29,468 nucleotides of DNA from a virus. The stretch lies in IMG/VR virus record IMGVR_UViG_3300021376_000254, positions 1 through 29,468 of that record; one strand, given 5' to 3'. The notes beneath the pieces were generated by a model. The model searched no databases, had not been told where the DNA came from, and saw only the letters and a program-made list of their open reading frames with translations. Below, piece after piece: positions 1-29,468 of this stretch (the stretch's first letter is position 1; the number at the start of each line of letters is the position of its first letter). Both the position numbers and the translations under genes were made by a program.

Positions 1-1506
1 TTCAGCAAGTGCTAATGCAGCTGCTAGTTTTTCTTCATCTAATTTACCAAACCTTTCTCTAATTCTTTGTTGATTGACCAAAGAATCAAACTCCATACCT
101 GTTGCTTCTGTTAAAGCATCTTGTTGGTATTTATTTAATTTTGTTATGTCACCTAATTTTGCAACTTGGTCATTTACAGCTTGTTGAGCTCCTAAAATAT
201 CATTATTAGCTGCTAAATATCTTGCCTGTGATAGATTGATATTTGTACCTAATATTGCAGATGCTTCTAATTCTTTTGTAATTGAACTTTCAAAATCCAA
301 TAAACCATCAGCAACTTTACCTGCTTCTTTTATAGAAGTACCTAATTTAGCAGCCTGTACTGCTGCTTGTGCAAGTTTTTCAGGCGAACTTTGAAAATAA
401 CGATATGCATATTCCGAATTTTCGGCCATATCTTTTATTACTTGTCCAGGTGCAACTCCTGCAATTTTTGCCATAGAAACTGCTTGGCCAATTAGATATT
501 GAGATTGTTCAGCAGTTAATCCACCAATGTTTTGAAATACTTTATTAAGTTTTGCTGCCTCATCTACTCCTACACCAAAGTTTTTATTTAATGTTACTAT
601 TGAACCTAAAACTTCTTTTGATGGTTGTTCTAAACCTCCAAATTCATTTGTAAATTCAGCTGCTGCTTTTGCTGCATCTTCGGCACTTACACCTAAATTA
701 CCAAAATCAACATTCGCATTACGAATGTTTTCCTGCATTCCTCTTGTTTGTGAAACTAATAAACCAGTTTCTTCTCTAAAAGCTTTTGCGGCTTGGTCAA
801 GTTCAGAGAATCTCTTTATTGCCGCAACGATTGTTGCAACTACAACAGCAAGTGCTAAAACAATTATAGCTATAATAGCTTGTGGTCCTGAAAATGCAGC
901 AACTAATGCTTTTCCAACAGAAGTTCCAGCTCCACCCAATGCTTGCATTGCTCCTTGTCCAGAACGAAGGTTTGTAGCAAAAGAAGTTGTGAATGTTTTT
1001 GCGGCTCCACCAATTTTATTCCTAAACATTGAAGAAGCTGAGTCACCAAGTTTGGATAACATACCACCAATAATAGGAATATTATCAAATGAACCAACCA
1101 AACCATCAAAAGCACTACTCATGCTATCTGATAACCCTTGTGCAGCTTCATCAACCTTTTCAATTAAATCTAATCTTTGGCCTTCAATTGCAAGAGATCT
1201 ATTTATAGTTTGTAAAGCCTTAATTTTTTCTTCACCAACTTTTTTATTTGAACCAAAATAAGATTTTGCTATTCTATCTATTTCTTTCTCATTATCTACT
1301 ATTAATTTTTGAACATCTTCTGATGTTTCTAATTGAGAAACTGTTGATTTTAAATCATTAAGATAATCTTTTACTTTTTTTCCTAAAGTTGTTCTTTTAT
1401 CTATTTGTTCATCTAAATCTTGGGTTATGGCAGTAGTAAGAGATTGAGACATTTTTAGTGCCTCATTATATTCATTTTGTATTTTTAAATCTTGTTTATT
1501 TGCCAT
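1..1506 (-). CDS. Tail tape measure protein, N-terminal part (cut by window edge)
   Basis: The reading frame is open from the ATG at 1506 to base 1 without a stop, giving 502 residues of a longer protein. The first 120 residues are highly charged and look alpha-helical. A long hydrophobic segment follows at about residues 200-230 (core AIIAIIVLALAVVVATIVAA). After it comes an Ala/Gln-rich, helical stretch typical of tape measure proteins, which set tail length and are ejected with the DNA. Position supports the call: it lies after sheath, tube and the frameshifting chaperone-like gene, the usual order in contractile and siphophage tails. An AGGA lies about 6 bases before the ATG. The missing 3' part would hold the remainder of the helical region and any lysozyme-like domain. 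The identification rests on composition and position, not on a sequence motif. Confidence 0.78.
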   Translation of the reverse strand, partial: MANKQDLKIQNEYNEALKMSQSLTTAITQDLDEQIDKRTTLGKKVKDYLNDLKSTVSQLETSEDVQKLIVDNEKEIDRIAKSYFGSNKKVGEEKIKALQTINRSLAIEGQRLDLIEKVDEAAQGLSDSMSSAFDGLVGSFDNIPIIGGMLSKLGDSASSMFRNKIGGAAKTFTTSFATNLRSGQGAMQALGGAGTSVGKALVAAFSGPQAIIAIIVLALAVVVATIVAAIKRFSELDQAAKAFREETGLLVSQTRGMQENIRNANVDFGNLGVSAEDAAKAAAEFTNEFGGLEQPSKEVLGSIVTLNKNFGVGVDEAAKLNKVFQNIGGLTAEQSQYLIGQAVSMAKIAGVAPGQVIKDMAENSEYAYRYFQSSPEKLAQAAVQAAKLGTSIKEAGKVADGLLDFESSITKELEASAILGTNINLSQARYLAANNDILGAQQAVNDQVAKLGDITKLNKYQQDALTEATGMEFDSLVNQQRIRERFGKLDEEKLAAALALAE

Positions 1507-1514
1507 TTAAAATC

Positions 1515-1766
1515 CTATCTAATGTTTAAAATAGCCTTATATGAATGTGGAATTTTTTCTCCTCTTTTTTTCATATCTTCAACTTCGTCACGAAGTTTTT
1601 GCATATCATCATCTAATTTTTTTGCCATCGCTAAAAAATCTTTATCTTTTTCTAACTTTGAAATCATTTTTTTTCCAAAAATGTAATCAACAATACCTTC
1701 TTTCATATCGTGTTTTTTCGATATAAATTCTTTTATTTTCTTTTTATTAATTTCACTTATTCGCAT
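1515..1766 (-). CDS. Small charged helical protein upstream of the tape measure
   Basis: 83 residues, very rich in Lys, Glu and Asp, probably almost entirely alpha-helical, with a likely coiled coil at about residues 35-70 (DDDMQKLRDEVEDMKKRGEK). There is no membrane segment and no recognised family. The ATG is preceded by GGAG at 8 bases, a good ribosome site, and a TATATTTATA element lies 23 bases upstream. The tape measure begins 8 bases after its stop, so the two are probably cotranscribed. A chaperone or tail-tip accessory role would fit the position but is only a guess. Confidence 0.7.
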   Translation of the reverse strand: MRISEINKKKIKEFISKKHDMKEGIVDYIFGKKMISKLEKDKDFLAMAKKLDDDMQKLRDEVEDMKKRGEKIPHSYKAILNIR

Positions 1767-1805: not shown

Positions 1806-1836
1806 AAAAAAAGTGAGGAAGTTTTCACCTCCTCAC
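1806..1836 (-). terminator. Rho-independent terminator after the chaperone gene
   Basis: On the minus strand GTGAGGA pairs with TCCTCAC (1836-1830 with 1819-1813), followed by seven T (1812-1806). The upstream arm overlaps the last codons and stop of the frameshifted frame (stop 1827-1825). Confidence 0.75.
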
Positions 1837-2049
1837 ATTTACATTTGGACCATTTGCAGGTTTTTTAGATTTTTGGGATTTTTTAAGTTCTTCTTGCTCT
1901 TTCTTTTTAGTATCCAATAATTGTTTATAATAAAAATTTCTTAAATGGATAGGTAATCGATAAACACCTTCTTGTGTAAACCCATTTCCAAAATAACATA
2001 ATTCAAAAATTTGTTTATGTAATACAATAGAATAATTACTCGGAAGGCC
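1825..2049 (-). CDS. Frameshift extension of the gp26-like protein (no start codon of its own)
   Basis: A 74-codon open frame, +1 relative to the 251-aa gene, running from the T7 tract (2056-2050) to TGA at 1827-1825. It begins GLPSNYSIVLHKQIFELCYF, then GNGFTQEGVYRLPIHLRNFY, then a Lys/Glu-rich helix. This is a protein-like composition with an LP..LR..Y pattern reminiscent of phage tail-assembly T domains. In this frame a TAG lies directly before the T tract, and there is no ATG, GTG or TTG near the beginning. It can therefore only be made by shifting from the upstream gene: GGG TTT TTT (T) GGC. The fusion would be about 321 residues. This mirrors lambda G/GT and P2 E/E+E', where the frameshifted chaperone precedes the tape measure gene. 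Alternatives are transcriptional slippage or a homopolymer sequencing error. Confidence 0.7.
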   Translation of the reverse strand, partial: GLPSNYSIVLHKQIFELCYFGNGFTQEGVYRLPIHLRNFYYKQLLDTKKKEQEELKKSQKSKKPANGPNVNVRR

Positions 2050-2791
2050 AAAAAAACCCTACACCCATTGGAATTGGGCGTACCTCCTTTTCTCCTGTTT
2101 CAGGGTTTTCATATTCAAATTCCATATTAATATCTGGTTGAATTTTTTTAACTTGATCTCTAAATGATTTAGTATCTCTCGTTAAAAATTGATTATTAAT
2201 AAAATTTGTAATAGATCCAGTGTCGGTTTTTCCATTTACTGATAAAATCATATATCTATAACGAACCGTAAGTTCAGATGTAACCCCACCTTTATTTAAT
2301 CGTTGAAGTGCTTTAATATCTGCATCTATTTTCTTTTCATCACCATGAGATAGTAATTTATATTCTAATACTGTACCATTTGAAGTTGTAAACTTATACT
2401 TATTTTCTCTATTAATTTTAGTTTCATCAATTTCTTTAGTTGATACTTTACCCAAATCAACAACTACATCTTCTTTTTGTCCATCTTCATTTGTAATTTG
2501 TATTGAATATTCTGGTCCATATCCTAAAATACGAGTTGCTAACATAATAGCATTTTTATCACCAATTAAAATATCATCTATATTAACCTTTGAATCAACT
2601 ACTATTGATTCAAATAATTTATCTAATACAACACCTTTTTTGATTAAATTTTGTGAAGTAAGTATTTCTTCTTCTTTTGCGGTCATATATTTTATTTCTA
2701 ACTGACCAGAAGATAGTGGATTTGATTCAGGATAACATAATCCTTTTGATGGAAGTGAAATTACCTCCGTTGGAAAATCATAATTTGCCAT
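2036..2791 (-). CDS. T4 gp26-like baseplate/tail assembly protein (probable tail assembly chaperone)
   Basis: 251 residues. The N terminus carries the LPSKGLCYP motif and the KYMTAKEEEIL segment typical of the T4 base-plate protein family (gp26-like, PF12322 type). The C terminus ends GVGFFWPSE; FFWP-type ends are, from memory, common in this family, so the stop looks natural. It sits between tail tube and tape measure, the slot of tail assembly chaperones in other phages. Its last codons contain a GGG TTT TTT TGG slippery tract leading into a second open frame (1825-2049). The ATG is preceded by AAGG at about 9 bases and a TATATTTATA element 28 bases upstream. The family assignment is from remembered motifs; the exact role, baseplate hub or chaperone, is not decided by sequence. 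Confidence 0.8.
   Translation of the reverse strand: MANYDFPTEVISLPSKGLCYPESNPLSSGQLEIKYMTAKEEEILTSQNLIKKGVVLDKLFESIVVDSKVNIDDILIGDKNAIMLATRILGYGPEYSIQITNEDGQKEDVVVDLGKVSTKEIDETKINRENKYKFTTSNGTVLEYKLLSHGDEKKIDADIKALQRLNKGGVTSELTVRYRYMILSVNGKTDTGSITNFINNQFLTRDTKSFRDQVKKIQPDINMEFEYENPETGEKEVRPIPMGVGFFWPSE
2050..2059 (-). other. Candidate programmed frameshift site GGG TTT TTT T
   Basis: Seven T on the minus strand after GGG, five codons before the zero-frame stop. With a +1 slip both the P-site and A-site Phe tRNAs re-pair with UUU, so +1 is favoured on pairing grounds. A -2 slip reaches the same frame but breaks P-site pairing. A strong SD-like AAAAGGAGG (2091-2083) lies about 26 bases upstream inside the gene. 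Confidence 0.6.
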
Positions 2792-2902: not shown

Positions 2903-3178
2903 TTAATCTACCGGCCAAAATTTTGTACTCAATATCACATTCTCTGGTTTGGTAGCCACTAAATTCTCTACCAATTTATTGGCTCTCTCTCTAGCTCCGA
3001 AGTGTCCAAACTCCATTACATCAAAGAATGCCAAAGCCACCTTGTATAAAGTGGTTGGGTACTTACCACCGTAATATACCCTAGTCTCTATATTCTCCCG
3101 CTTCACATTCGGAAGTTTCATTAGGGATTTGATTGAAGAAGAGGAAGCGGAGACGGAGAAGAAATCGAAGTCATTCAT
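2903..3178 (-). CDS. Small hypothetical protein inserted in the tail module
   Basis: 91 residues, soluble, starting MNDFDFF and followed by a Ser-rich stretch, then a mixed alpha/beta-looking region. No family recognised. It has its own promoter of host type (TTG-N20-TATATTTA, 3245-3215) and its own terminator (2869-2846), so it is an independent cassette between tail tube and gp26-like genes. The leader shows no Shine-Dalgarno sequence (a C-rich stretch precedes the ATG). Its base composition looks less AT-rich than that of its neighbours. It is probably an early-expressed accessory gene unrelated to the virion. Confidence 0.7.
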   Translation of the reverse strand: MNDFDFFSVSASSSSIKSLMKLPNVKRENIETRVYYGGKYPTTLYKVALAFFDVMEFGHFGARERANKLVENLVATKPENVILSTKFWPVD

Positions 3179-3214
3179 ATTATAGGGGGGTTAGGTTGAA
3201 CTCTTATTACATAG

Positions 3215-3245
3215 TAAATATACACAATTCTGAATTAAAAGTCAA
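3215..3245 (-). promoter_or_regulatory. Bacteroidota-type promoter of the 91-aa gene
   Basis: Minus strand: TTG at 3245-3243, exactly 20 bases, then TATATTTA at 3222-3215. This fits the TTG / TAnnTTTG consensus with a final A. The spacer holds the palindrome AATTCAGAATT (3236-3226), also present in the promoter at 27660-27690. Confidence 0.65.
3226..3236. promoter_or_regulatory. Palindromic operator candidate in promoter spacer
   Basis: AATTC-A-GAATT, a perfect inverted repeat around one base, lying between the two promoter elements. An identical 11-mer occurs in the spacer of the promoter at 27660-27690. A repressor or activator site is possible. Confidence 0.3.
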
Positions 3246-3257
3246 GCTTTTTCTTAA

Positions 3258-3548
3258 TTATTTTATTACTGCTTGGTACGCATCAAAGAACATTTTGTTG
3301 ATTTGATTGTTGATTTCTCTATCCAACTCTCTTTGTTTCTTTCTTACTATGGAGTTTTGTACTCTAACAATTTCGTTAAGAACTTTGATGATGGAGTTTC
3401 TATCTTCTGCAATCACACCCACTCTCCACTCAACCCCATCTATTCGGAGTATCTCGCCCAGTTCTCTACTGAACTTTGATTCAAAATACTGAACCTCAAT
3501 CACTCTCTCACCACTCATTCTTACTAATCCTAATTTCATATCTCTCAT
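3258..3548 (-). CDS. Small hypothetical protein (MRDMK leader), inserted in the tail module
   Basis: 96 residues. After the MRDMKLGLVRM start there is a probable beta-rich half (residues 5-50, with GVEWRVGVIAEDRNS) and a long, charged, probably helical half (residues 55-96). No family recognised. The first 15 bases of the gene are identical to those of the gene at 27362-27649, although the proteins then differ. A second in-frame ATG lies at codon 4 and could be used instead. The promoter is TTG-N20-TACCTTTA; no Shine-Dalgarno sequence is seen. It is likely an early accessory gene inserted between late genes. Confidence 0.7.
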   Translation of the reverse strand: MRDMKLGLVRMSGERVIEVQYFESKFSRELGEILRIDGVEWRVGVIAEDRNSIIKVLNEIVRVQNSIVRKKQRELDREINNQINKMFFDAYQAVIK

Positions 3549-3667: not shown

Positions 3668-4159
3668 TTAGAATTCCAATATCGCGTAGTCGTAAGAGAG
3701 TGTCAATGTAATTTCTTGTGGGTCTGCTTGATTTGCCCAATCTACATCATTGAAAACTGCGTTATTAATAAATGCACCTTTTAAAGTCCATTGTTCAATT
3801 TTATCACCAACTGGTCCTAAAGAATAGATTTGTACGTCTTTTTTGTAAAAATCTGCGTATCCATCTCTACCAGTTAAAGATTCATGAGATAAACGTACCC
3901 ATTCCATTACAGCTTGTGCTCCAGATGGGACAATTGGGTCATAAAGAGTAATTTCAACGTCTTGCCATTCACCTTTACCTTTTAGTTTTCTCTTTACATT
4001 TATATGTTCAAGAGTTACTACTTCGAATTGTATGCTTGGTTTATTTGCCGTTTTTATTAAATATGAAGGGATTCCACCAATTTCCATGATGAAACGATTC
4101 TTCATCTTTGGTTCGAAGTTCGTATAGAACATCTGATCAAACTCTAATACTTCTGCCAT
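3668..4159 (-). CDS. Tail tube protein (T4 gp19-like)
   Basis: 163 residues, the same size as T4 gp19. The family pattern is visible: F.P...NRFIMEIGGIPSYLI near the start, TLEHINVKRKLKGKGEWQDVEITLYDPI in the middle, a YSLGPVGDKIEQWTLKGAFI strand pair, and a C-terminal PQEITLTLSYDYA. Such proteins form the hexameric rings of the inner tail tube inside the contractile sheath. It directly follows the sheath gene, as in T4 (18-19). An AGGAG lies 9 bases before the ATG, and an AATATTTAT element lies in the 52-base gap to the sheath gene, so it may be transcribed independently at high level. A terminator follows. Confidence 0.92.
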   Translation of the reverse strand: MAEVLEFDQMFYTNFEPKMKNRFIMEIGGIPSYLIKTANKPSIQFEVVTLEHINVKRKLKGKGEWQDVEITLYDPIVPSGAQAVMEWVRLSHESLTGRDGYADFYKKDVQIYSLGPVGDKIEQWTLKGAFINNAVFNDVDWANQADPQEITLTLSYDYAILEF

Positions 4160-4211: not shown

Positions 4212-6569
4212 TTACGCTGAAAATGATGCTCCAGTCGGTAATATGTTGAAATCTAACACAATGAATTCCGCGGTTTTTGTTGGTTGTAAGAAAATCTGTC
4301 CAGACAAAATGTTTCTATCAATTACATCCGGTGTATTATTTGATTCATCCATAACCACTCTGAACGCAAATAAACCCTGTCTTTGTTGAACACTTTCTAA
4401 ATAAGGGTTTACAGTATTAAGGAATCTTGCTCTAGTTGTAGATGTGTTTTGTTCAAATACAAGATATCTTGATGTTGAAGCGATGAATTTTTTAACTTTA
4501 ATAAGTAATCTTCTAACATTGATTCTATCTAATGCAGATGCTTTATCTTGTAAAGTTTTTTGTCCAAATGCTACAATACCTTCACCAGGGAAAGAAGCGA
4601 TTGGGTTTACTTTACCTTCATACAATTCATCTCTTTCGGCGTGTGTTAATCTATTCAATACACTAACCGCTCCGGTAATACCACCTCTATTTAAACCAGC
4701 TGGTGCGAACCATTCAGCTGCAATTGCATCATTGGCTGCGTAAATTCCTGGCATCAATACTGATGGTGGAACTGCGATTAATTTATTAGTGTTTCTATCG
4801 ATTGTTTTAACCCAAGGATAGTATGTACCAACATAATTAGAATCTATTGAATTTGCTTCATCAATTGCCTGTGTAATTGTATCATTTACTGATGTTACAT
4901 CACCAATGAAGAATGCATCTTCTCTTGATTCAACCATATCAATTACTTTATCAAATACATAAGAATGTAATCTACGAACTATACCAGGTACAGATACTAA
5001 ATTAATATCAAAATCATCTGGATTAGATACTGAATTTATTGCTTTTAAATAAGCAATCGAACCACTTGATGTTGAATTAGAACAATTAAATCCTTGAGTA
5101 TTTCCAGGTCCAAAATTATCAGATGATGCTAAAGCGATTTCAGTTGTAGGTGAGTTACCATCAAAACCTTCTTGAAAACCTATTGTAAATTGTCTTTTTA
5201 CAACATCATTTGCAGATGAACCAGTTAATTCATATCCAAATGAATGTGTACCACCGTTTATAGAAATACTACTTTGGTCAAACGCAAATACACTATTAGT
5301 ACCAGTTGATGCATCATTTGGAATTGGTGATAAGAAATGTCCATTATCCAATTTTACTAATGTTGTATCTAAATCAATACCAGAATATTTTGTAGAATTT
5401 GATGAGTTATTTTCAGCAGAACCAGTTGAGAATACAACTGATGGAGTGATTGAATCATTTCCTGCTATTGGTGAAAGATATGGTTGGTGTCCAAACGGTC
5501 CCGCTATAATTGGGAATGAACCTTCAGCTTTTACTTCAACTCTAATGAATTTTGAACGATTAGCATAATCACCATTAAGAGTTTGTTTACCATTTGAATC
5601 AATAGTAACGTTTTGGTCACCAATTACTTTTACGATATAATTTGGTGATGCAGGGTCCAAATTAACATTATTATAAGTTTCTAATACACTCTTTTTTCTA
5701 TCAGTATCAGAATAACCTCTTACAGTAATAGAGAATGTAGCGTAATCAGTAGCGTTTGATTCACCTGCTGCTTTTACGTTAAAAATTGATATTTTAAATT
5801 CTTTGTTATATGCATTACCATCTCCTAATGTATGGAAACGGAAAAGTTCATGTCTTTGATTAGAAATTTTTTGTGATACAATATAAGGAGTAGATGCGTG
5901 TTGTACATCTTGTCCAATGAAACTTTGTTCAGCTAAAGGAACAATTGAAACTACTGAACCAGAAGCTTGTTTAAATGTTTTAGTTGCAGAATTTTCAAAA
6001 TATTGAGAAACATATACACCTTTTGGACCTCTTGCAGATTCACCAAAAACGTCTGATAAATCATTTCCAGCTGAAGGTAAAACTGATGCCGATAAATCAG
6101 TTTCATCATATTCAGTTCCAGTTCCGTTTAGTGTAATTGCAAATGCTGATGAAGATGGTTGTGCGGATACACTTGCTACAAAAGCATCTCCATTTCCAGA
6201 AGTAGACCAATGATAAGTTGGTTTTATTACACCTACTAATTTATGTCCTGCTCCTGATCCGGATACTACGATACCATAAGAACCTGATTCTTCAACGGTA
6301 TAACCACCTACGTGACCAACTCTTACAATTGTAACAGTTCCAGCCTCTCTTAAATAATTTTGTACTGTATATCCTGTGTAGTAATCTCCATTAGGAACAC
6401 CGAATATAGATTCGAATTCTGATTGTGTATTTACAACGGTTGGTACGAAAGCAGGGCCTTTAGAGAAAGGTCCAATAATTGCTGCTCCGATTTCACCAAT
6501 ACCTTGAGATAAGAACGATTGGTCATTTTCTCTTGTAAAAACACCTGGTGATACAATCTTTTCTGCCAT
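4212..6569 (-). CDS. Contractile tail sheath protein (T4 gp18-like)
   Basis: 785 residues, longer than T4 gp18 (659). The N terminus SPGVFTRENDQSF...AAIIGPFSKGPAFVPTVV and the FGVPNGDYYTGY segment match sheath proteins. The conserved C-terminal domain begins near residue 560 (YYPWVKTIDRNTNK, PPSVLMPGIYAANDA, AGLNRGGI) and ends with a tube-contact region containing RRLLIKVKKFIASTSRYLVF and the final strand TAEFIVLDFNILPTG. The middle (about residues 100-520) is Ser/Asn/Gly-rich and variable, probably surface-exposed insertion domains that account for the extra length. AGGAG lies 9 bases before the ATG. It stands immediately before the tube gene. Confidence 0.93.
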   Translation of the reverse strand: MAEKIVSPGVFTRENDQSFLSQGIGEIGAAIIGPFSKGPAFVPTVVNTQSEFESIFGVPNGDYYTGYTVQNYLREAGTVTIVRVGHVGGYTVEESGSYGIVVSGSGAGHKLVGVIKPTYHWSTSGNGDAFVASVSAQPSSSAFAITLNGTGTEYDETDLSASVLPSAGNDLSDVFGESARGPKGVYVSQYFENSATKTFKQASGSVVSIVPLAEQSFIGQDVQHASTPYIVSQKISNQRHELFRFHTLGDGNAYNKEFKISIFNVKAAGESNATDYATFSITVRGYSDTDRKKSVLETYNNVNLDPASPNYIVKVIGDQNVTIDSNGKQTLNGDYANRSKFIRVEVKAEGSFPIIAGPFGHQPYLSPIAGNDSITPSVVFSTGSAENNSSNSTKYSGIDLDTTLVKLDNGHFLSPIPNDASTGTNSVFAFDQSSISINGGTHSFGYELTGSSANDVVKRQFTIGFQEGFDGNSPTTEIALASSDNFGPGNTQGFNCSNSTSSGSIAYLKAINSVSNPDDFDINLVSVPGIVRRLHSYVFDKVIDMVESREDAFFIGDVTSVNDTITQAIDEANSIDSNYVGTYYPWVKTIDRNTNKLIAVPPSVLMPGIYAANDAIAAEWFAPAGLNRGGITGAVSVLNRLTHAERDELYEGKVNPIASFPGEGIVAFGQKTLQDKASALDRINVRRLLIKVKKFIASTSRYLVFEQNTSTTRARFLNTVNPYLESVQQRQGLFAFRVVMDESNNTPDVIDRNILSGQIFLQPTKTAEFIVLDFNILPTGASFSA

Positions 6570-7005: not shown

Positions 7006-8277
7006 TTATCTCGTAAATGTTAATGTTGCAGAGTAAGTACCTTTTAATCCAGCTTCAATTGCTCTTACTCTAAAATAGTATGTTCCTGCGGATAAAATAG
7101 TATTTACTTCAACTTCGGTTGTACTCCATTCATCTGCTGTATTTACAATAGTGGAAAATCCACTATCACTTGCTATTTGATATTGATAAGCAGTAATACC
7201 TAATGTTAAAGTTTTAGCTGGTGCAACCCACGTTATCAATGGTGAGGAATAAGTTACAGATGTTGGAGCTCCTGGTCCAGCAAAGTCGGTATGTGAATTT
7301 CCACCTTTATTATGTGTTATATATCCATTTACAAGGTATGTATCTTCTTCTTCTACATCAATTGAAATAATTTCAGTTGTTTTGTTTACAACTTCTATTG
7401 ATGTTACATCTACTTCAGTACCATCACCTTTGATAAGTTTATCACCGGAAACAATGTTAAACATTTCTTTGAAAAGATAATTTCCACTTACTATATCTTT
7501 TACTAAAAGTGGATGTTCCGATGTTGCGGTAATTTGACCATTATTAATATTGTAATATCTCGAAGCAAAAGAATAAGTAAGGTTTACTATGGTAACATCT
7601 TTTGGAGTTTTATTTAATGTGTTTGAAGACCAATTCAAAAATGTTTCGTCTGAATTTTGTCCTAAACCTTCAATTAAAAATCCTTTTAATAAATCCCCTT
7701 CATTTAAATCACCAGCCTCTACAATTGTGCCATCTGCCAAAGTGATTGGAGAATCTATCGTCAAACATAATGCAGCAGAGTTTCCATCATATGAATCTAC
7801 CGAGTAAACAGTTTTATCTTTATTTGTATTGTAACCAGTTGCGTGGTCATTAAATCCATCAGCAAATTTTGCTCTTACGGTATGTGTTTCAATTGTTTGA
7901 AGAACTGTTTGAGTTGCAGCGTTAGTCATAGATGAAACGGCTAAAGTTGCCGTTTTACCATTATTTGCACTTACAGATAATTTACTACCAGCTGGAACTG
8001 ACCAAGTTACATTTTGGCTTCTATTACCAACTTTTGAATCAAAAAGAGTTCCAGAACCAGTTGTGAATCCTAATGTAAAAGTTTCAGATGTTGATTCAAC
8101 TGCATAAGTAAATCCTGTTACTGAATCGACACTGTCAATAGAAAAAGCAGACATTGAAATGTTATTACCTGACGATGGAGAACCTTTTATAGTTCCTAAA
8201 GAAATATTTGTTAATCCAGTTCCAGTCGCACCTGCTAAATTGTAAAGTGATAATGTATCTCCTGATGATCTAGGCAT
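7006..8277 (-). CDS. Virion-type protein with internal Hint (intein-like) domain and C-terminal fibronectin-III domain
   Basis: 423 residues in three parts. Residues 1-170 are Ser/Thr/Gly-rich, beta-type, like phage structural proteins. Residues 171-323 form a Hint domain: Cys171 opens CLTIDSPITLADGTIVEAGD (block A), ATSEHPLLV holds the block B His255, and VEEEDTYLVNGYITHN ends in His322-Asn323 (blocks F/G). There is no room for a homing endonuclease. Asn323 is followed by Lys-Gly-Gly, not Cys/Ser/Thr, so ordinary protein splicing is not expected; self-cleavage is more likely, as in bacterial intein-like proteins. Residues 335-423 look like one fibronectin type III domain (PGAPTSVTYSSPLITWVAP..., GTYYFRVRAIEAG). 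It lies between a glycosyltransferase and the sheath module, so a tail-associated role is probable. Confidence 0.85.
   Translation of the reverse strand: MPRSSGDTLSLYNLAGATGTGLTNISLGTIKGSPSSGNNISMSAFSIDSVDSVTGFTYAVESTSETFTLGFTTGSGTLFDSKVGNRSQNVTWSVPAGSKLSVSANNGKTATLAVSSMTNAATQTVLQTIETHTVRAKFADGFNDHATGYNTNKDKTVYSVDSYDGNSAALCLTIDSPITLADGTIVEAGDLNEGDLLKGFLIEGLGQNSDETFLNWSSNTLNKTPKDVTIVNLTYSFASRYYNINNGQITATSEHPLLVKDIVSGNYLFKEMFNIVSGDKLIKGDGTEVDVTSIEVVNKTTEIISIDVEEEDTYLVNGYITHNKGGNSHTDFAGPGAPTSVTYSSPLITWVAPAKTLTLGITAYQYQIASDSGFSTIVNTADEWSTTEVEVNTILSAGTYYFRVRAIEAGLKGTYSATLTFTR
7309..7767 (-). other. Hint/mini-intein-like domain coding region
   Basis: Encodes Cys171 to Asn323 of the 423-aa protein: N-terminal Cys, block B T-S-E-H, penultimate His and terminal Asn are all present. 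The +1 residue is Lys. About 153 residues, the size of endonuclease-free Hint domains. Confidence 0.85.
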
Positions 8278-9292: not shown

Positions 9293-11587
9293 TTATTTTT
9301 TAACTATTACTAATCCACTAAAATTTGAACTAAATGTTACACTTATTGCATTCACCGATAAAGATTCAATAATTGAAGGAACTTCTTGCCTTTTTGTAGA
9401 AGTATTATATGCCTGAACTATTGGATATTCTTCATTTAAACTATGTGTAATACTATATACGGAATTTCCTGTTATAGATTCTTTATATGTAGTTAAATTT
9501 GTAATTTGAGTTGATCCAGAAATTAAACCAGTTGGTATATTTGCTAAATTTGCCCATTCAGTTGAACCGCTCACAATATGGCCACCTTTTGCAACAACTG
9601 CGAATCCACTTTGAGCTGAAGAGAGAGTTATTGTAACATTATTATCATTAGTTAATGTAACTGATGTTGGAATTAATTGTGCGTTAGTATTATCATATAC
9701 TGAAACGATTACATTTTTACTATTAAAATTATGTGTTACAACAAAAGATGATTGATTATCAAATGATGATGTTACGGTCGCTACTTCTGCTATTTCAGTA
9801 ACTACATTTGTAATTTGAGATCCATCTCCTTTGAAAAAAGATGCAGTAATTGCACCACTTCCTAAATTTATTGATTGATTTACTAATGAACTTACTATTT
9901 GTGTTGAAGATGAAACTATCCCGCTACCTTTTACTTCGTATGATGAAGTTGCATTAATTAAAGATGAAGTAACATTTTGTAGTGTACTCCATTTATTATC
10001 ATTAGAACCAGTATAAGTTGCAAGAGTTACAAATTTATTATCAATAGAACTTGTATAAGTTGCTAATGTAGAATTTTTTGATTCTTCAGATGAAGAAAAT
10101 AAATTTAAAGAAATTATCCTTGAATCTACTGATGAACTATAAGATGTATATCCATTAGTTTGTGTAAAATCAATTTGTGATGAGCCAGATACTACCGAAT
10201 CTCCATTCGAAAGTAATACTTTACTTTCAGAACCACTTATACCAGCCTTCCAATAATCATTATTTACATCCCATACAAAAGATCCAGAGTTTGTATTACC
10301 ACCAGTTGCATCTCTTACAATTAAACCACCGTTTGATGTTCCTGCGGCATTTAGAGAAATAATATTATCATCTAATTGAATTGTAGTTGAATTAATTGTA
10401 GTAGTTGTACCTCTAACATTTAAATCTCCCAAAACTACCACATTTGAACCAGTCAATTCAAATGCAGTTTTTAATGATGATGAGTATAAATTAAGTGAAT
10501 CTAAAATATTAATTACTTGTGAGGATCCAGAAACAGTTCCGGTTGGTAATGAACTTACTACTTGTCCTGATCCCGAAATAGTTCCATTTGGTAAAGATGA
10601 AACAACTTGTGAAGATCCTGATATTACTCCACCTATAAGTTCAGCAGTAATTACACCATTTGTAATTGAAAAATCTACCGTAGACGAATCAGTCGAAGAT
10701 GATACTATATTTGTAGGAATAGAAGATATTCCTAAAAAGCTTATTTGAGATGAACCAGAAACTACGGTTTCTGCATTTAATCTGTCTTTAATACCACTTA
10801 CATAGTTGGTAGTTTGGGTAAGATTAACTTGTGAAGAACCCGATACAACACCTGTTGGTAAAAATGATACAACTTGTGATGAACTACTAACTATATTAGA
10901 TGGTATATTTGTAAAATTGTTATAATTTAAATAATATGAACCCGCTTCACCATTTAATAAATTTGAATCAGATGCTGCACCACTAACAATATGACCACCT
11001 TTTGCAATTACCACATATCCACTTTGTGCAGATGATAGTGTTATGGTTGCACTATTATCATCCGTTAGGGTAATTGATGTTGGTATAATTTGGGAATAAT
11101 TAGTATCATATACTGATATAATTACGTTTCTTGTATCAAAATTGTGAGATACCGAAAAATTTGATGAATTTGAAAAAGATGAGTTTACAGTAGAAACTTC
11201 TGCAATATCAACAACTAAATTTGTTAAATTTGAACCATCACCAGAAAATGAACCAGTAAATGAACCTGAAATAGTCCCTTCGCCTGTAACATTTAAATAT
11301 CGTGAATCAAATGAAGATGTAAGTTGTGATGAACCACTAACTACACCATTTGTAGAGTGTATAGCACCAAATAAAACTGATGCTGTAATTTGACCAGTAA
11401 TGTTTAATGACCCGGTAGTAACAGCATCTGTTGTAACAACTTGTTGTATTGATGGTGTTCCATTATCTTTCTCAAAGAAAATTCTACCATCGTAAGTATT
11501 TATCGCTAGTTCCCCTAATTCTAAATTAGAAGTAGACGGAACTTTACCTTCAACAGCTGTCCTTTTTAACTTTACTACTTGTGCCAT
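9293..11587 (-). CDS. Modular tail fibre/spike protein (764 aa)
   Basis: The N terminus MAQVVKLKRTAVEGKVPSTS with LELGELAINTYDGRIFFEKD is a fibre head type common in marine myophages. About ten VSGSSQ-type linkers are spread along the chain. Two full copies of a roughly 75-residue beta module occur (about residues 130-205 and 595-670), with H.F...NVI.SVYD, IIPTS.TL, TITLSSAQSG and ending AKGGHIVSG. A shorter third version forms the C terminus (SVYSITHSLNEEYPIVQAY ... SGLVIVKK). One TTTTINSTTIQLDDNIISLN cassette lies in the middle. Low complexity and Ser/Thr content suggest a trimeric beta fibre. There is no S74 domain, unlike the next fibre. It belongs to the large fibre cluster; receptor binding is inferred. 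Confidence 0.8.
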   Translation of the reverse strand: MAQVVKLKRTAVEGKVPSTSNLELGELAINTYDGRIFFEKDNGTPSIQQVVTTDAVTTGSLNITGQITASVLFGAIHSTNGVVSGSSQLTSSFDSRYLNVTGEGTISGSFTGSFSGDGSNLTNLVVDIAEVSTVNSSFSNSSNFSVSHNFDTRNVIISVYDTNYSQIIPTSITLTDDNSATITLSSAQSGYVVIAKGGHIVSGAASDSNLLNGEAGSYYLNYNNFTNIPSNIVSSSSQVVSFLPTGVVSGSSQVNLTQTTNYVSGIKDRLNAETVVSGSSQISFLGISSIPTNIVSSSTDSSTVDFSITNGVITAELIGGVISGSSQVVSSLPNGTISGSGQVVSSLPTGTVSGSSQVINILDSLNLYSSSLKTAFELTGSNVVVLGDLNVRGTTTTINSTTIQLDDNIISLNAAGTSNGGLIVRDATGGNTNSGSFVWDVNNDYWKAGISGSESKVLLSNGDSVVSGSSQIDFTQTNGYTSYSSSVDSRIISLNLFSSSEESKNSTLATYTSSIDNKFVTLATYTGSNDNKWSTLQNVTSSLINATSSYEVKGSGIVSSSTQIVSSLVNQSINLGSGAITASFFKGDGSQITNVVTEIAEVATVTSSFDNQSSFVVTHNFNSKNVIVSVYDNTNAQLIPTSVTLTNDNNVTITLSSAQSGFAVVAKGGHIVSGSTEWANLANIPTGLISGSTQITNLTTYKESITGNSVYSITHSLNEEYPIVQAYNTSTKRQEVPSIIESLSVNAISVTFSSNFSGLVIVKK

Positions 11588-11634
11588 ATTTATGCATTAC
11601 CGATTTCATTATATAATTACTTCGGTTTAAAATA

Positions 11635-11649
11635 TCCTTATATAAGGAT
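11635..11649 (-). terminator. Weak hairpin between two fibre genes
   Basis: Inverted repeat ATCCTT / AAGGAT with a 3-base loop in the gap after the 608-aa fibre gene. The following sequence is only moderately T-rich, so terminator function is doubtful. Confidence 0.3.
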
Positions 11650-11667
11650 TTTTAACCTTTATTTTAT

Positions 11668-11976
11668 TTAGTGTTTTTTCAAACTCTCAATTTCAACTTT
11701 CATATCGTTGATTTGAATTTGTTGTTCTTTAATACCTTCAATTAATAATGCTACTAATTTATCGTATTTAACAGCTTTATAACCACTTTCTCTTGTTTGA
11801 ACTAATTGTGGTAATACCGCCTCTATTTCTTGTGCGATTACACCCACATCGTTTCCTTCGTATCCGTGCTCAATTTTGTTTTCTTCTTTCCAATCATAAG
11901 TGTTACCACTAATTTTTTTAATCTTATCGATGGCGTTTTCGATTGGTTTGATGTTTTCTTTGAAACGAATATCAGA
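11668..11976 (-). other. S74 self-cleaving chaperone domain
   Basis: Codes for residues 507-608 of the fibre, with the S-D-x-R-x-K cleavage dyad at the start and the GVIAQE core. Predicted to be removed from the mature fibre. Confidence 0.85.
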
Positions 11977-13494
11977 AGATGAGAATGCTACAACATCATT
12001 TGTTGCATCAATTCTTCCCGCAGTTGCACTCGCTGCCATTCCAACACCTATTGAGTTAAATTGAACGTTAGATGAGGTTGATACCGCTTGTCCAATAGAG
12101 ATAGTTACTGCACCGGTTGCTCCACTCACACTAATACCTGTTCCGGCAACGTTTGAAGTTACACCACTATTTGCAATTGTTACCGCAGAACCACCATTAT
12201 ATGATGTTCCGCTTAATCCAGTACCAATTGTTAAGGTTGCCAAATTAGAACCTAAAGAAATACCACTTATTGTTGAATTAGTCAATGATGCGTTTGCAAT
12301 ATTACTTAAAGTATTATTTGTACCACTTATTGTTTTATTTGTTAGGGTCTGAGTGCCAGTTGTAGTCACTAAAGGAATTTCAGAACCACTTAATCCTGCT
12401 ACCCAATTATCATTTCCCTCATCCCAAATCAAAGTTGCATTTGCAGATGTACCTCTTTCAATTTCAATACCTCCGTTTTGAGATGGAATACCTGTTTCAT
12501 CTGAATTTAGAACGATTAAGTTATCACCAATATTTACGGTATTTGAGTTTACAGTTGTAGTTGTTCCATTTACAGTCAAATCACCAGTAATAGTAACATT
12601 ATTTGAGAATGTTCTATTTCCTGTAATTGTATCTGCTAAACCAACAGTTACAGTTCCACCACTACCCAAAGTAATTGATGAACCACCATCTATTGAAATT
12701 TCATTTGTTGTTCCTGCAAATGCTAAAGTAGTATTACCTTGTACTGCGGTGTTTGCAGAAGAACCATAGTTTACTGCAATTGTAGGTGATGAACCTTCAC
12801 CACTATTTGAAGCTATAGTCACACCCGTTCCACTACCTAATGATGCTACATAATCACCTGTTGTATCAGTACCCAATGCTACTGAATTTGCTTGTATCGT
12901 TGAAACTCCATTTGATGCAATCAGTACATCACCACTAATATTTGAAAAAACTTGTGAAGAACCTGATACAACACCACTTACAAGTGAAATGGTTGCGGTT
13001 GAACCTTCGCTTGGTGTATGTGAAATAACAATACCTGCATTTCCTGCAGATACGTCAGTCATATAGTTACCCGTTGTATCAGTACCCAATGCTACTGAAT
13101 TTGCTTGTATCGTTGAAACTCCATTTGATGCAATCAGAACATCTCCACTAATATTTGAGAATACTTGAGATGAACCGGATATAACACCGGAAGGTAATAA
13201 ACTAGTTACTTGTACAGATCCAGAAACTACGGTTTCAGTATTAAGTTTATTTTTTATTGTGGTATCAATAGATGAAGTAAATGATTCGATACTATCAAGT
13301 CTTGAATCTTGTGAGCCCGTATCGGTTTTTAAACTTTCTATTTTACTATTTAATGATGCTGAAAAATCTGCAGTATCACCAATACCTGAAACTGAACCAC
13401 TAAACGAACCAGTGATTTGTCCATTAGCTGAAACGAATGTTGCACCACTTGCAAAAGTTAATGAACCTGAAATAATTGGACTATGTATTATCAT
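11668..13494 (-). CDS. Tail fibre protein with C-terminal S74 intramolecular chaperone (608 aa)
   Basis: The body consists of Ser/Gly/Thr-rich beta repeats with VSGSSQ linkers and a TTTTVNSNTVNIGDNLIVLN cassette near the centre. Residues 507-608 are a peptidase S74 domain: S507-D-I-R-F-K512 gives the Ser/Lys dyad used for self-cleavage in endosialidase-type fibres. GNDVGVIAQEIEAVLPQLV and GYKAVKYDKLVALLIEGIKE are the family's conserved core, followed by a C-terminal coiled coil. The domain normally drives trimerisation and then cuts itself off. A direct repeat of 71 codons is seen inside the gene. An AGGA lies about 8 bases before the ATG and a TATATTTATA element 21 bases upstream. Confidence 0.88.
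   Translation of the reverse strand: MIIHSPIISGSLTFASGATFVSANGQITGSFSGSVSGIGDTADFSASLNSKIESLKTDTGSQDSRLDSIESFTSSIDTTIKNKLNTETVVSGSVQVTSLLPSGVISGSSQVFSNISGDVLIASNGVSTIQANSVALGTDTTGNYMTDVSAGNAGIVISHTPSEGSTATISLVSGVVSGSSQVFSNISGDVLIASNGVSTIQANSVALGTDTTGDYVASLGSGTGVTIASNSGEGSSPTIAVNYGSSANTAVQGNTTLAFAGTTNEISIDGGSSITLGSGGTVTVGLADTITGNRTFSNNVTITGDLTVNGTTTTVNSNTVNIGDNLIVLNSDETGIPSQNGGIEIERGTSANATLIWDEGNDNWVAGLSGSEIPLVTTTGTQTLTNKTISGTNNTLSNIANASLTNSTISGISLGSNLATLTIGTGLSGTSYNGGSAVTIANSGVTSNVAGTGISVSGATGAVTISIGQAVSTSSNVQFNSIGVGMAASATAGRIDATNDVVAFSSSDIRFKENIKPIENAIDKIKKISGNTYDWKEENKIEHGYEGNDVGVIAQEIEAVLPQLVQTRESGYKAVKYDKLVALLIEGIKEQQIQINDMKVEIESLKKH
12856..13188. repeat. Direct repeat inside the 608-aa fibre gene, offset 213 bases
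   Basis: About 120 bases from 12856 recur from 13069 with few changes; both encode FSNISGDVLIASNGVSTIQA plus NSVALGTDTTG. The offset of 71 codons keeps the frame. It reflects internal duplication of a fibre module. Confidence 0.8.
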
Positions 13495-13515
13495 CTTCTT
13501 TTTCCTTTTATACTA

Positions 13516-13525
13516 TATAAATATA
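13516..13525 (-). promoter_or_regulatory. Late-type promoter element before the 608-aa fibre
   Basis: Minus-strand TATATTTATA, 21 bases before the ATG at 13494, in the 37-base gap between two fibre genes. Confidence 0.45.
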
Positions 13526-13531
13526 TGTTTT

Positions 13532-14146
13532 TTAAATTGAACCTCCATCTATTTGAGAAATTACAGTTGCATCTGCCGTTCCTGTCACATCACCACTTAA
13601 AGTTATTTGAGATGAACCCGAAATTAATGTTGGTTTGTTAATAATACTGGCATATTCTACCGAACCACTTACTATATGACCACCATTCGCAACTACTACA
13701 TATCCACTTCTAGATGATTCAAATGTAATAGTTATAGTATTATTATCAGTAATTCTTAAAGTTTGAGGTATAATTTGATAATAATCATTATCATAAACCT
13801 GAACTATTGCATTTTCAGTATTAAGATTGTGGTCTACAACCCATGTTGACTGATTTGTAAATGATTTTTGAACTGTTGCTGTTTGTCCAATTGTCACATT
13901 TGTCAATTGAGAACCATCTCCTTGAAAAAATGAAGCAGTTATTGAACCTGTAATACTTAATGATCCAGTTAAAGTTCCATTATGGTTTAATGTTACTAAA
14001 TCTACAATTTCATCTACACTACCACTTTTTCTTGTGAAAACTCTACCATCATAAACATTAATTGCTAATTCACCAGTTTCTAATGAACCAACAGTTGGCT
14101 TAGACCCACTCGAAGTGGAACGTTTTAATCTTATAATTTGGGCCAT
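13532..14146 (-). CDS. Short fibre/spike protein (204 aa)
   Basis: The head MAQIIRLKRSTSSGSKPTVG and ETGELAINVYDGRVFTRK matches that of the 764-aa fibre. It then has one copy of the shared beta module (about residues 95-160: HNLNTENAIVQVYD, IIPQTLRI, SGYVVVANGGHIVSG) and one ISGSSQ linker. It ends DATVISQIDGGSI, an IDGG-type C terminus also present on two other fibres. It may be a short adaptor or a truncated fibre. It starts one base after the stop of the 1377-aa fibre, so the two are translationally close. A TGGA stretch precedes the ATG. Confidence 0.75.
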   Translation of the reverse strand: MAQIIRLKRSTSSGSKPTVGSLETGELAINVYDGRVFTRKSGSVDEIVDLVTLNHNGTLTGSLSITGSITASFFQGDGSQLTNVTIGQTATVQKSFTNQSTWVVDHNLNTENAIVQVYDNDYYQIIPQTLRITDNNTITITFESSRSGYVVVANGGHIVSGSVEYASIINKPTLISGSSQITLSGDVTGTADATVISQIDGGSI

Positions 14147-14147
14147 T

Positions 14148-14438
14148 TTATTTTTCCAATTTATTTTTTAGTTCTTTTACTTCATTAGATAGTTCTTTTA
14201 TACCTTCAATAAGAAGTGAAACTAATCTATCGTATTTTACTGCCTTATAACCATTATCTCTATTTTCTACAAGTTCTGGTAATATAGATTCAATTTCCTG
14301 TGCTATTACACCATAATCTTTACCTTTATAAATATTTTGTTTTTCTTCGTCCCATATAAAAGCATAACCGCCAATTTTATTTATTTTTTGTAAAGGATTA
14401 GAAATTAATTCTAAATTATTTTTTAATCTAATATCAGA
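14148..14438 (-). other. S74 self-cleaving chaperone domain of the 1377-aa fibre
   Basis: Residues 1282-1377; the SDIRLK dyad and the GVIAQE core are both present. Close in sequence to the S74 domain of the 608-aa fibre (about 3 kb downstream in transcription). Confidence 0.85.
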
Positions 14439-17400
14439 GGATGCATAAGCAACAATATCACCACCTGCAAATATATCACCACTTGTCCCAATACCTCCAC
14501 TTACAATTAATGCTCCAGATGTTTTTGAAGTCGATGTAGTATTATTTGTAATTGTTACAGAACCAGTTACAAGTAAAGAACCAGTAATTTGTGTATTGGA
14601 GTTTATAGATACATTTGTACCACTATCACTAATATTTGAATCATTTAAGTGGTGATTATCTACTGCCTTTGGTATTCTATTAGTTGATAGATAGGCTGGT
14701 GAACCTTTTGTTGAATATTCTGGTCCAAAAATTGATACTCCAAAATCAATTCCATTAGAAGATGAATATTCAAACCCCCAATCATTTGTTTGACCATCAA
14801 AAAAGAATGATGCTGTTGAAGGATTAGAACCCGAATCAATAACTATAATACCAGCGTATCTTTCACTTGGAGTGTTGTTATTTAATTGTACAAATGCATC
14901 ACCTATCATTTTTACCGAACCAGTCACTTGTTCAATATATGCAAATGAACCAGTTCCATTTACAATTATATTATTAAATGTTTTTGTTCCAGTAATTGTT
15001 TGTGAACCACTTAAATTTACATATCTTGTATCATAAGATGAAGAAAGTTGAGATGAACCTGAAACGATTCCTGTTGGTATATTTGATAAATTAGGATACG
15101 ATACTTGAGATGAACCTGAAACGATTCCTGTTGGTATATTTGATAAATTAGGATACGATACTTGTGATGAACCAGATACTACCCCACTAGGTAATAAAGT
15201 AGTTATTTGTGATGAACCAGAAATTACACCTTCTACATTTAACTTATCTTTTATTGTAGTATTAATAGAAGATGTAAATGAATTAAATGACGAAGTTGTA
15301 GTTAATGTATCTATTCTTAATGTATTGATTTCATTACCCATACCACTATGATGTGCACAGTAGTAATACAATTTAGTGGGAGTATCATAATTTACTTCAA
15401 TTTGTATGAAATTAGATCCGCTAATTACTCCTGTTGTATATTGGGTAGGGCCATCTGGAGAGGTAGAGAATTTAAACGGATGAGAACCTTCAACAGCAGA
15501 GGTATTAAACCTATAAGTAGCACCAGGTACAAATGAAAGTATTGGTTGAGATATACTATCTATTACAAATACACCGCCACTATCAGTTACAACATGTGTA
15601 AATAGACTTTCAGTTAAATTATTAATTCTACTATCAAATGATTGAGAATCGGTATTGTAAGAACCAGTATTTAATTTTGTTGCTATTGAATTTATTAATG
15701 AACCAGTTGCACTTCCTAATTCTTGTTGTGTTACAAACCCACTATCAAGTGAAGATGAGAATGATTCTAACGAATCTAAACGAGTATCTACTGATTGTGA
15801 GAAGGTAGATATTGTTGAATTTACACCATTGATAAAATGAGCAGAACTTGTATCCAAAGAAAGTGTTGCTGGTCCTGAAACTGCTCCACCACTAATACCA
15901 TTTCCTGCAACCACAGCTGTAATATCACCTGCACCAACAACTAATAATTGTTCATCGATATAATCTTTAACTGCTCCCGCACTACCTAAAACTGCAGGGT
16001 TACCATCTGATATAGATGAAGAAACATTATACCAAGCTGCAGAACCTAATGAACCAGATGTTGTTCTAATTCCAATTAAATCTGCAACTGAACCACTAAC
16101 TTCATATAAACTATCTAAAGAAGAAGTTAATTGATTTGAACTAGATATTATCCCACCAATCACATTTCCACTAATTACACCATTTGTAATTGTAAAATCA
16201 ATTGTAGCTGAATCACTCGAAGAAGAAACAACACCTTCAGTATTTATTTTATTTTTGACTATTGTTTGAATTGAAGAACTAAATGAATAGTATTGTGATG
16301 CTGTATTAAATAAATTATTTACATTTGTATCATTTGATTGAGTGTAAGAATGTAAACTATTTAAATCTGAATTTACTGAAGCTGTATAATTTTCTAATGA
16401 CAAAAACTTACCATCAACCGAAGAAGTATAATTTTGTAATGATAAAAATTTACCATCAACTGAAGCTGTATAGGCTGCTAATGTTGAATTTTTACTTTCT
16501 TCTGAAGCGGTAAATAATTGTAAAGTATCTAGTCTAAAATCTACTGATGAACTAAATTGTTCAAAGTTTTCATTTGATGATGATAATAAACCACTACCAT
16601 TTGTAATTTGAGAAGAACCTGAAAGTACACCTTCTGCATTTAATCTATTCTTAATACCACTTACATAGTTGGTAGTTTGAGTTAAATCAATTTGAGAAGA
16701 ACCAGATACAACTAAATCTCCTTCAATCATTAAATACCTAAAATCTAATGATGAAGTTACTTGACTAGAACCACTTACTAATCCACTACCATTAAATGAT
16801 ATATTTGAATGTTGTATATTAGTTAATTCAGAACCATCTCCTTTAAATCCATATGATGATGATAATTTTGAGTTTGTATGTAAGAGTGTTTCATTATCTT
16901 TCCATAAAATTGAAACATTAGCTCCTGAAATATGTAATCCTGATCCATCTGCTTGTGCGGAGGTTGTAGAACCCGAAGCAAGTGATAAAACTTTATCTTC
17001 AATAACTAATTCAGTAGTATTAAGAGTTGTTGTAGTACCTTGTACAGTCAAATCTCCAAATATAATAATATTTTGACCGTTTACATCAATCGCATCTTTT
17101 AATGATTGTGAATAATCATTGAGATAGTAAATTGAATTTGATACCGAACTTGTATAATTTTGTAATGATAAAAATTTACCATCAACTGAAGCGGTATAGG
17201 CTGCTAATGTTAAATTTTTACTTTCTTCTGAAGCGGTGAATGATTGTAAAGAAGCGGTTGTTGTTCCTATTGTTAAATTTTTACTTTCTTGTGAGGAAGT
17301 AAATTCTAAAATTGATGAAGTTGTTGATGAAAGGGTTATAAATTTATTATTTATTGAACCCGTATAATCTGCAAGTGTACTATTTTTTCCTTCTTCTGAT

Positions 17401-18281: not shown

Positions 18282-18306
18282 CTATTAGATTTCCATTAAT
18301 TTTAAG

Positions 18307-18316
18307 TATAAATATA
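18307..18316 (-). promoter_or_regulatory. Late-type promoter element before the 1377-aa fibre
   Basis: Minus-strand TATATTTATA, 25 bases before the ATG at 18281, downstream of a terminator. Confidence 0.5.
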
Positions 18317-18385
18317 TTTTCTCTTAAATTATTAGAGAATTAAAAAACATTTTCACATATATAAGTATAAAAAAAACAAAAGTAT

Positions 18386-18417
18386 AAAAAAAATCCCCAA
18401 CCTTTCGGAGGGGGATT
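18386..18417 (-). terminator. Rho-independent terminator after the 873-aa fibre gene
   Basis: Minus strand: AATCCCC...GGGGATT stem with an inner CC-GAAA-GG hairpin and two mismatches, followed by a run of eight T. Confidence 0.8.
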
Positions 18418-18439
18418 TTAATTTTAATTTATGTTTTAT

Positions 18440-21061: not shown

Positions 21062-21141
21062 TTTCTTTTTTTTTCCTTTTTTTAGTTATTTTTGTTACTA
21101 CGAAAACCTTTATTTCAGGACATTTGCCTTTTTTTTATTAT

Positions 21142-21166
21142 AAAAATTTAAGTGCTATTTAGCACT
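21142..21166 (-). terminator. Rho-independent terminator after the 390-aa gene
   Basis: Minus-strand stem AGTGCTA / TAGCACT with a 2-base loop, followed by TAAATTTTTA. The T tract is interrupted, so strength is uncertain. Confidence 0.6.
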
Positions 21167-21177
21167 AATTTATTTTA

Positions 21178-21187
21178 TATAAATATT
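21178..21187 (-). promoter_or_regulatory. Late-type element upstream of a terminator
   Basis: Minus-strand AATATTTATA between the stop of the 390-aa gene and the terminator at 21166-21142. A transcript starting here would meet the terminator before the 873-aa gene, so this copy may be fortuitous or attenuated. Confidence 0.25.
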
Positions 21188-21203
21188 ATTAATTTTTAGT
21201 TTA

Positions 21204-29436: not shown

Positions 29437-29452
29437 CAACGTAACATTTTTA

Positions 29453-29461
29453 ATAAATATA
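29453..29461 (-). promoter_or_regulatory. TATATTTAT element before the polymerase gene
   Basis: Minus-strand TATATTTAT, 16 bases before the ATG. The window ends 7 bases further up, so a TTG 20 bases upstream cannot be checked. Confidence 0.4.
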
Positions 29462-29468
29462 CAAATTA

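Follow-up and report, generated by a model that had tools for sequence, protein, structure and literature searches.

Lambda (G/GT) and P2 (E/E+E') make a short tail-assembly chaperone and a frameshifted long one from genes located between those for the tail tube and the tape measure. Most shifts in chaperones of this type are -1 and fewer are +1. The heptamer X XXY YYZ is the usual, but not universal, slip site among frameshifted tail-assembly chaperones. Lambda-type G/GT frameshifting was described as widespread in long-tailed phages 'except T4', and the same report considered the frameshift of the haloarchaeal myovirus HSTV-2 very likely to be +1 (PMC5009743). In an actinophage training set, 350 of the 2718 annotated slip sites were forward (PMC10885494).

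The T4-type tail-assembly chaperone genes were identified by Vladimirov, Gautam & Davidson (2022, Virology 566:9-15), as cited in PMC10885494 and PMC12846349. According to a passage in PMC10885494, some T4-like phages encode the long form in a fused gene of its own, in addition to a short gene, with no frameshift, and poly-T -1 signals in the short-form genes of T4-like phages are described in a passage of PMC12846349. As these passages present it, the system class (T4-type short and long chaperones, with -1 shifts in some relatives) is already published. T4 gp51, an essential protein with no function assigned as of 2010, is absent from the finished particle (PMC3004832), as expected for an equivalent of lambda GT.

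We found that a gp26-type gene from a virus distantly related to phage T4 has a similar arrangement, with the second frame in +1. The window is the whole stretch of DNA that was analysed, 29,468 nucleotides of the IMG/VR record IMGVR_UViG_3300021376_000254. We propose, with a probability of about 0.88, that the gene makes short and long tail-assembly chaperones through a +1 ribosomal slip at a tract of seven Ts. We liken the window to lambda and P2 by layout and claim no sequence relation; as in those phages, a role in setting the ratio of two products is likely. The relevant features, all on the minus strand, are as follows.

4212..6569 (-): tail sheath, gp18-like (phrog_23, E 5.4e-68); upstream context
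3668..4159 (-): tail tube protein, gp19-like (PF06841, E 1.8e-7; phrog_4542, E 1.1e-26); upstream context
2903-3548 (-): two small open frames (91 and 96 aa) between the tail tube and gp26-like genes, with no Pfam match
2036..2791 (-): 0-frame gene, 251 aa, assigned to the T4 gp26 family, putative short tail-assembly chaperone, 'G'-like (PF12322, phrog_150, AlphaFold)
2059..2061 (-): +1-frame TAG directly upstream of the tract
2057..2059 (-): GGG codon preceding the tract; its last base is never T in the +1 group
2050..2056 (-): slippery tract, codons TTT TTT and the T of TGG (A7 on the plus strand)
2036..2038 (-): 0-frame stop TAA, four codons past the slip codons
1825..2049 (-): +1-frame extension, putative 'T'-like domain, 74 aa plus stop (open frame, dN/dS, fold, homology to the cyanophage -1 extension)
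1515-1766 (-): 83-aa gene between the gp26-like and tape-measure-like genes
1..1506 (-): tape-measure-like gene, running off the window (position and composition only); downstream context

The gp26-like gene sits between the tail tube gene and the tape-measure-like gene, and a second, overlapping frame that has no start codon is open from near its 3' end. The gene ends GTA GGG TTT TTT TGG CCT TCC GAG TAA. The +1 frame contains 74 open codons (from GGC at 2049 to 1828), and its first ATG, GTG or TTG is a TTG 46 codons downstream. Because of the TAG at 2059-2061, this frame can be entered at the tract alone. The chance of 74 codons staying open is approximately 0.001-0.003 in a dinucleotide model; conservation, described below, is stronger evidence. 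A model that had seen only the letters and their open reading frames (the sequence-only reading) had described this startless 74-codon frame with a TAG just before it, and the window sequence bears this out. It had also placed the gene between tail tube and tape measure. The tube is confirmed by PF06841 and phrog_4542, and the tape measure is supported by position, composition, and the annotation of the gene at the equivalent position in Flavobacterium phage immuto as a tail tape measure protein.

The gp26-like identity given in the sequence-only reading was upheld by profile and model matches, by which we assign the 251-aa gene to the T4 gp26 family. The protein matched PF12322 with an E value of 2.2e-5 (24.7 bits, cut-off 24.5) and phrog_150 with an E value of 1.8e-9. 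The window fusion matched phrog_150 somewhat better (E 6e-10), and 44 of 45 fusions matched this family. An AlphaFold model of the 251-aa protein (pLDDT 89.7) matched gp26-type baseplate hub proteins in BFVD (e.g., that of Bacillus phage SP-15, E 1.2e-16). A comparison of this model with the PDB gave nothing convincing; the HK97 tail-assembly chaperone 2ob9 appeared at E 1.3, which is not usable.

We found that the two-frame layout is conserved. A protein search of viral contigs gave at least 600 related stretches. The best 80 of these were used, and removal of near-duplicates left 66 non-redundant sequences, including the window. Contigs ending inside the region were left out of the layout comparison, as was one (L002) that is identical to the window over the gp26-like gene and is not counted as independent proof because it may stem from the same sample. 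The +1 frame was open for 62-116 codons in all 66 sequences (from the best 80 of at least 600). In control frames of the same DNA, the -1 frame reached 60 codons in 12%, and the 0-frame did so past its stop in none. The 0-frame stop lies 3-6 codons past the slip in all relatives, and the 0-frame product ends in FFWP, FFYP or a close variant. The +1 frame of the relatives is of the type GLP.NYS..LH.QIFE..YGNGFT...VY.MP..LR.FY..KL...KKKE. Bacterial genome bins supplied a further 11 loci with both frames, several of these from Bacteroidota (Saprospiraceae, Flavobacteriales, Winogradskyella). Four distant phages also have both frames. The cultured phages with this arrangement are Flavobacterium immuto, Microcystis Mel-JY01, Bacillus SP-15, Listeria LIS04 and Streptococcus GXN1. 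Thus the layout that the sequence-only reading had proposed to look for in relatives is present throughout. Every one of more than 60 distinct relatives with a readable region has this layout, which is therefore genuine and no artefact of sequencing.

The second frame is under purifying selection. Its median dN/dS was 0.25 over 514 pairs, and all 25 usable pairs that included the window had values below 0.7. Differences fell mostly at third positions of +1-frame codons (12435, 9291 and 20101 at positions 1, 2 and 3, respectively). The 0-frame gp26-like part and the extension were modelled separately. The AlphaFold model of the 74-aa extension, built from 63 relatives, is a three-helix domain with a pLDDT of 86.5 (88-95 in a block across residues 1-60). 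Searched against the viral library, this model matched no fold significantly.

We found constraint on the nucleotides of the putative slip site. UUU followed by U or C was kept in 70 of 70 sequences tested, including four types of broken T tract in which the layout is intact (TTTCTTT, TTCTTTT, TTCTTTC and TTTCTATTC). Natural variants include TTC TTT TAC (L049), TTT CTT TGG (L075 and Flavobacterium immuto), TTC TTT CGT (Streptococcus GXN1), TTT CTA TTC (a 484-kb phage), TTT TTT CAC (Bacillus SP-15) and TTT TTT AGT (LIS04). Both Phe codons were TTT in 62 of 66 sequences, compared with 63% expected from TTT use elsewhere in the genes (nominal p 4e-9, ignoring shared ancestry); taken alone, this preference is modest. 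Where the codon before the tract was Gly, it was GGG in 19 of 24 cases; in the rest of these genes, 110 of 951 Gly codons were GGG (p 1.4e-13, again ignoring shared ancestry). The base preceding the tract was T in none of 65 sequences, although 38.6% T would be expected from third positions (nominal p 1.7e-14, shared ancestry ignored); it was G, C or A in all 65, and G or C in 57. With no T ahead of the tract, a U UUU UUU heptamer that would allow a -1 slip does not form in the +1 group, and the canonical -1 heptamer X XXY YYZ was absent from all 65 sequences of the window group. We also looked for stimulatory elements. There was no strong RNA structure, folding being only slightly stronger than expected by chance (mean folding z of -1.2 downstream and -1.0 upstream, and -0.3 in a control stretch), and Shine-Dalgarno-like words occurred in 17 of 66 sequences with no consistent element.

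These features are most consistent with forward slippage of a single tRNA. Normal reading would give the 251-aa short form, gp26-like and equivalent to lambda gpG. In a fraction of ribosomes, with tRNA-Phe on a P-site UUU and UGG (UAC in relatives) waiting in the A site, the P-site tRNA would slip one base forward onto UUU or UUC and so bypass the nearby stop. Addition of 74 residues would yield a 321-aa long form, the presumed equivalent of lambda gpGT and T4 gp51. On the lambda model, the short form would coat the tape-measure protein, and the extra domain of the long form would recruit tail-tube subunits. We infer the slip, its direction, its frequency and the lambda-like function from the conserved arrangement. 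Pairing of tRNA-Phe after a move of one base from UUU to UUU or UUC is preserved in 70 of 70 sequences. Together with the retention of both frames in relatives, this supports the proposal of the sequence-only reading that the T tract is a +1 recoding site. That reading had both Phe tRNAs re-pairing; one P-site slip is enough, because the layout is retained in relatives whose tract reads TTC TTT T or TTT CTT T.

The predicted event resembles that in prfB (release factor 2), in which a single P-site tRNA slips +1 from an NUU codon followed by U, beside a slow A-site codon. P-site re-pairing one base forward is the common feature, and the predicted pairing is good in all 70 sequences. However, the prfB site combines an A-site stop codon with a Shine-Dalgarno stimulator, whereas the window group has UGG or UAC and no consistent Shine-Dalgarno element.

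The same two products might arise by slippage of another kind. RNA polymerase could slip at the T7 tract, so that some mRNAs with six or nine Us would encode the fusion with no ribosomal shift. The tract is a homopolymer in an AT-rich genome, and the retention of TTT for both Phe codons in most relatives also speaks for such slippage. However, the layout persists in the broken runs listed above, which are too short for polymerase slippage, and the exclusion of T before the tract makes sense for ribosomes and not for polymerase; we regard this route as unlikely. A -2 ribosomal slip would enter a downstream frame identical to +1, and the phage Mu tail chaperone is a known case of a -2 shift. On TTC TTT TAC or TTT CTT TGG, however, it would leave tRNA-Phe or tRNA-Leu on mismatched codons, whereas the +1 move of tRNA-Phe is well paired in every sequence tested, and we consider a -2 slip quite improbable. 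Because UUU followed by a pyrimidine is present in every broken tract, a +1 slip of tRNA-Phe fits better than either.

Alternatively, the second frame could be a separate gene expressed by re-initiation past the gp26 stop. Some relatives have ATG or TTG codons in the second frame, and relatives in the Ackermannviridae have a TAATG-like junction. Against this, the window and its four closest distinct relatives have no second-frame start before codon 28 to 74, the other relatives share no start position, and conservation begins at the tract; re-initiation therefore seems very improbable. The sequence-only reading had raised a related possibility, that an ancestral separate gene had lost its start. 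Such decay is unlikely since there is no conserved start position in relatives (in many, a stop adjoins the tract) and selection is maintained from the junction onward. It had also suggested a homopolymer error within one continuous gene. Homopolymers are error-prone, but seven Ts or a broken, slip-competent tract in the same frame relation occur in dozens of independent assemblies and in cultured isolates, leaving this explanation a negligible probability. We therefore favor the +1 ribosomal slip.

Relatives of the gene appear to recode in the other direction. In the Kyanoviridae (S-RIM50, S-CREM1) and KVP40-like phages, gp26 genes end nnT TTT TTC GNN TAR, with a -1-frame extension. All of the distinct cyanophage and KVP40-type sequences examined (29 of 29) contained the heptamer U UUU UUC. 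These genes share with the window the same gene, the FF site, the kind of extension and the close stop after the slip. In contrast, the base before the tract is always T in the cyanophage and KVP40-like genes (-1) and never T in the window group (+1).

Annotations of these relatives also bear on gp51. The 'gp51' of the S-RIM50 record starts at an internal ATG within the conserved domain, and so the true product is probably the -1 fusion. In cyanophage and KVP40-like contigs (L088, 3235-3372; L092, 2908-3075), 'gp51' is annotated as a separate short gene; judging from the sequence, the annotated starts are probably wrong and the product is a -1 fusion with gp26. Cyanophage gp51 was reported to be only about 20% of the usual length (PMC3037559). 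In Ackermannviridae relatives (L090, L091 and L093), the extension is in the -1 frame with no clear heptamer, and one has an ATG overlapping the gp26 stop; the mechanism there may be re-initiation.

The gp26 (208 aa) and gp51 (249 aa) proteins of T4, like their counterparts in its close relatives, are paralogous across all of PF12322. gp51 is a continuous protein with an extra C-terminal stretch, and its paralog gp26 lacks the extension. T4 and the window thus have the same family (PF12322, phrog_150) and the same two predicted products, the domain alone and the domain with a C-terminal extension. However, T4 has two diverged genes on opposite strands, whereas the window has one gene with a putative +1 slip. 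Our comparison points to gp26 and gp51 as the T4 pair, in agreement with the published description of T4-type chaperones.

Profile comparisons connected the three groups. Probabilities were 99% for gp26 with gp51, 99% for the cyanophage fusion with gp51, and 96% (E 1e-9) for the window-type fusion with the cyanophage fusion. With extension-only profiles, the window type matched the cyanophage type at 84% and the cyanophage type matched gp51 at 97%; the direct match between the window type and gp51 was weak (5%), and the proposed link of the window extension to the gp51 C-terminus runs through the cyanophage extension. The sequence-only reading had proposed comparing the 74-aa frame with phage proteins. 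The window extension alone had no match in Pfam or PHROGs; the relation to the cyanophage extension comes from the profile comparison. The chaperone-like type of fusion that the sequence-only reading had predicted is supported, and the T4 homologs of the gene, gp26 and gp51, are known short and long tail-assembly chaperones.

A tree built from the N-terminal part placed the +1 users in one group (support 0.996). The gp51 sequences formed another (0.991), nested in a group of gp26 and gp51 (0.958). Two -1 sequences, presumably the KVP40-like pair, joined the +1 group ahead of the other -1 users. Because the tree is midpoint-rooted and the divergence is deep, the order of events is uncertain. 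We think it reasonably probable that recoding at the same Phe-Phe site switched direction (-1 in cyanophages and KVP40-like phages, +1 in the Bacteroidota-type phages and their relatives with Gram-positive hosts), largely through the bases before and after the T run, and that the T4 lineage dropped recoding by duplication into gp26 and gp51.

The conserved +1 version appears to be new. We found no report of it, or of the contrast in the base before the tract, in a search of mostly open-access literature. Conserved +1 frameshifts are easily overlooked, and the number known from bacterial viruses is comparatively small. The +1 layout is widespread, with at least 600 related stretches in one viral collection, and the long chaperone is missing from current annotations (e.g., the records of Flavobacterium immuto and Bacillus SP-15).

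Several other observations concern the contigs themselves. The two-frame T7 layout also occurs in a gp26-type gene (L195, 3001-3928) of a 2.8-Mb record labelled as a candidate division WOR-3 chromosome, possibly as part of a prophage or tail-like element. In the structural region of the window, a 423-aa gene (7006-8277, minus strand) contains a Hint/intein-like stretch (Pretoxin HINT, E 9e-5; Intein splicing, E 0.0016; both under curated cut-offs) and, after it, a weak match to fibronectin type III; the gene might encode an intein or auto-processing domain in a tail gene. Several long fibre-like genes made of repeated 'VSGSSQ' segments occupy 9293-22376 (minus strand). One of these (11668-13494) has a C-terminal Peptidase_S74 self-cleaving chaperone domain (E 1.1e-17), and another (14148-18281) has a similar end. 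Near the tail genes, at 27778-29466 (minus strand), the window encodes a bacterial-type DNA polymerase III alpha (NTPase and finger domains, E 2e-42), in contrast to the family B polymerase of classical T4 relatives.
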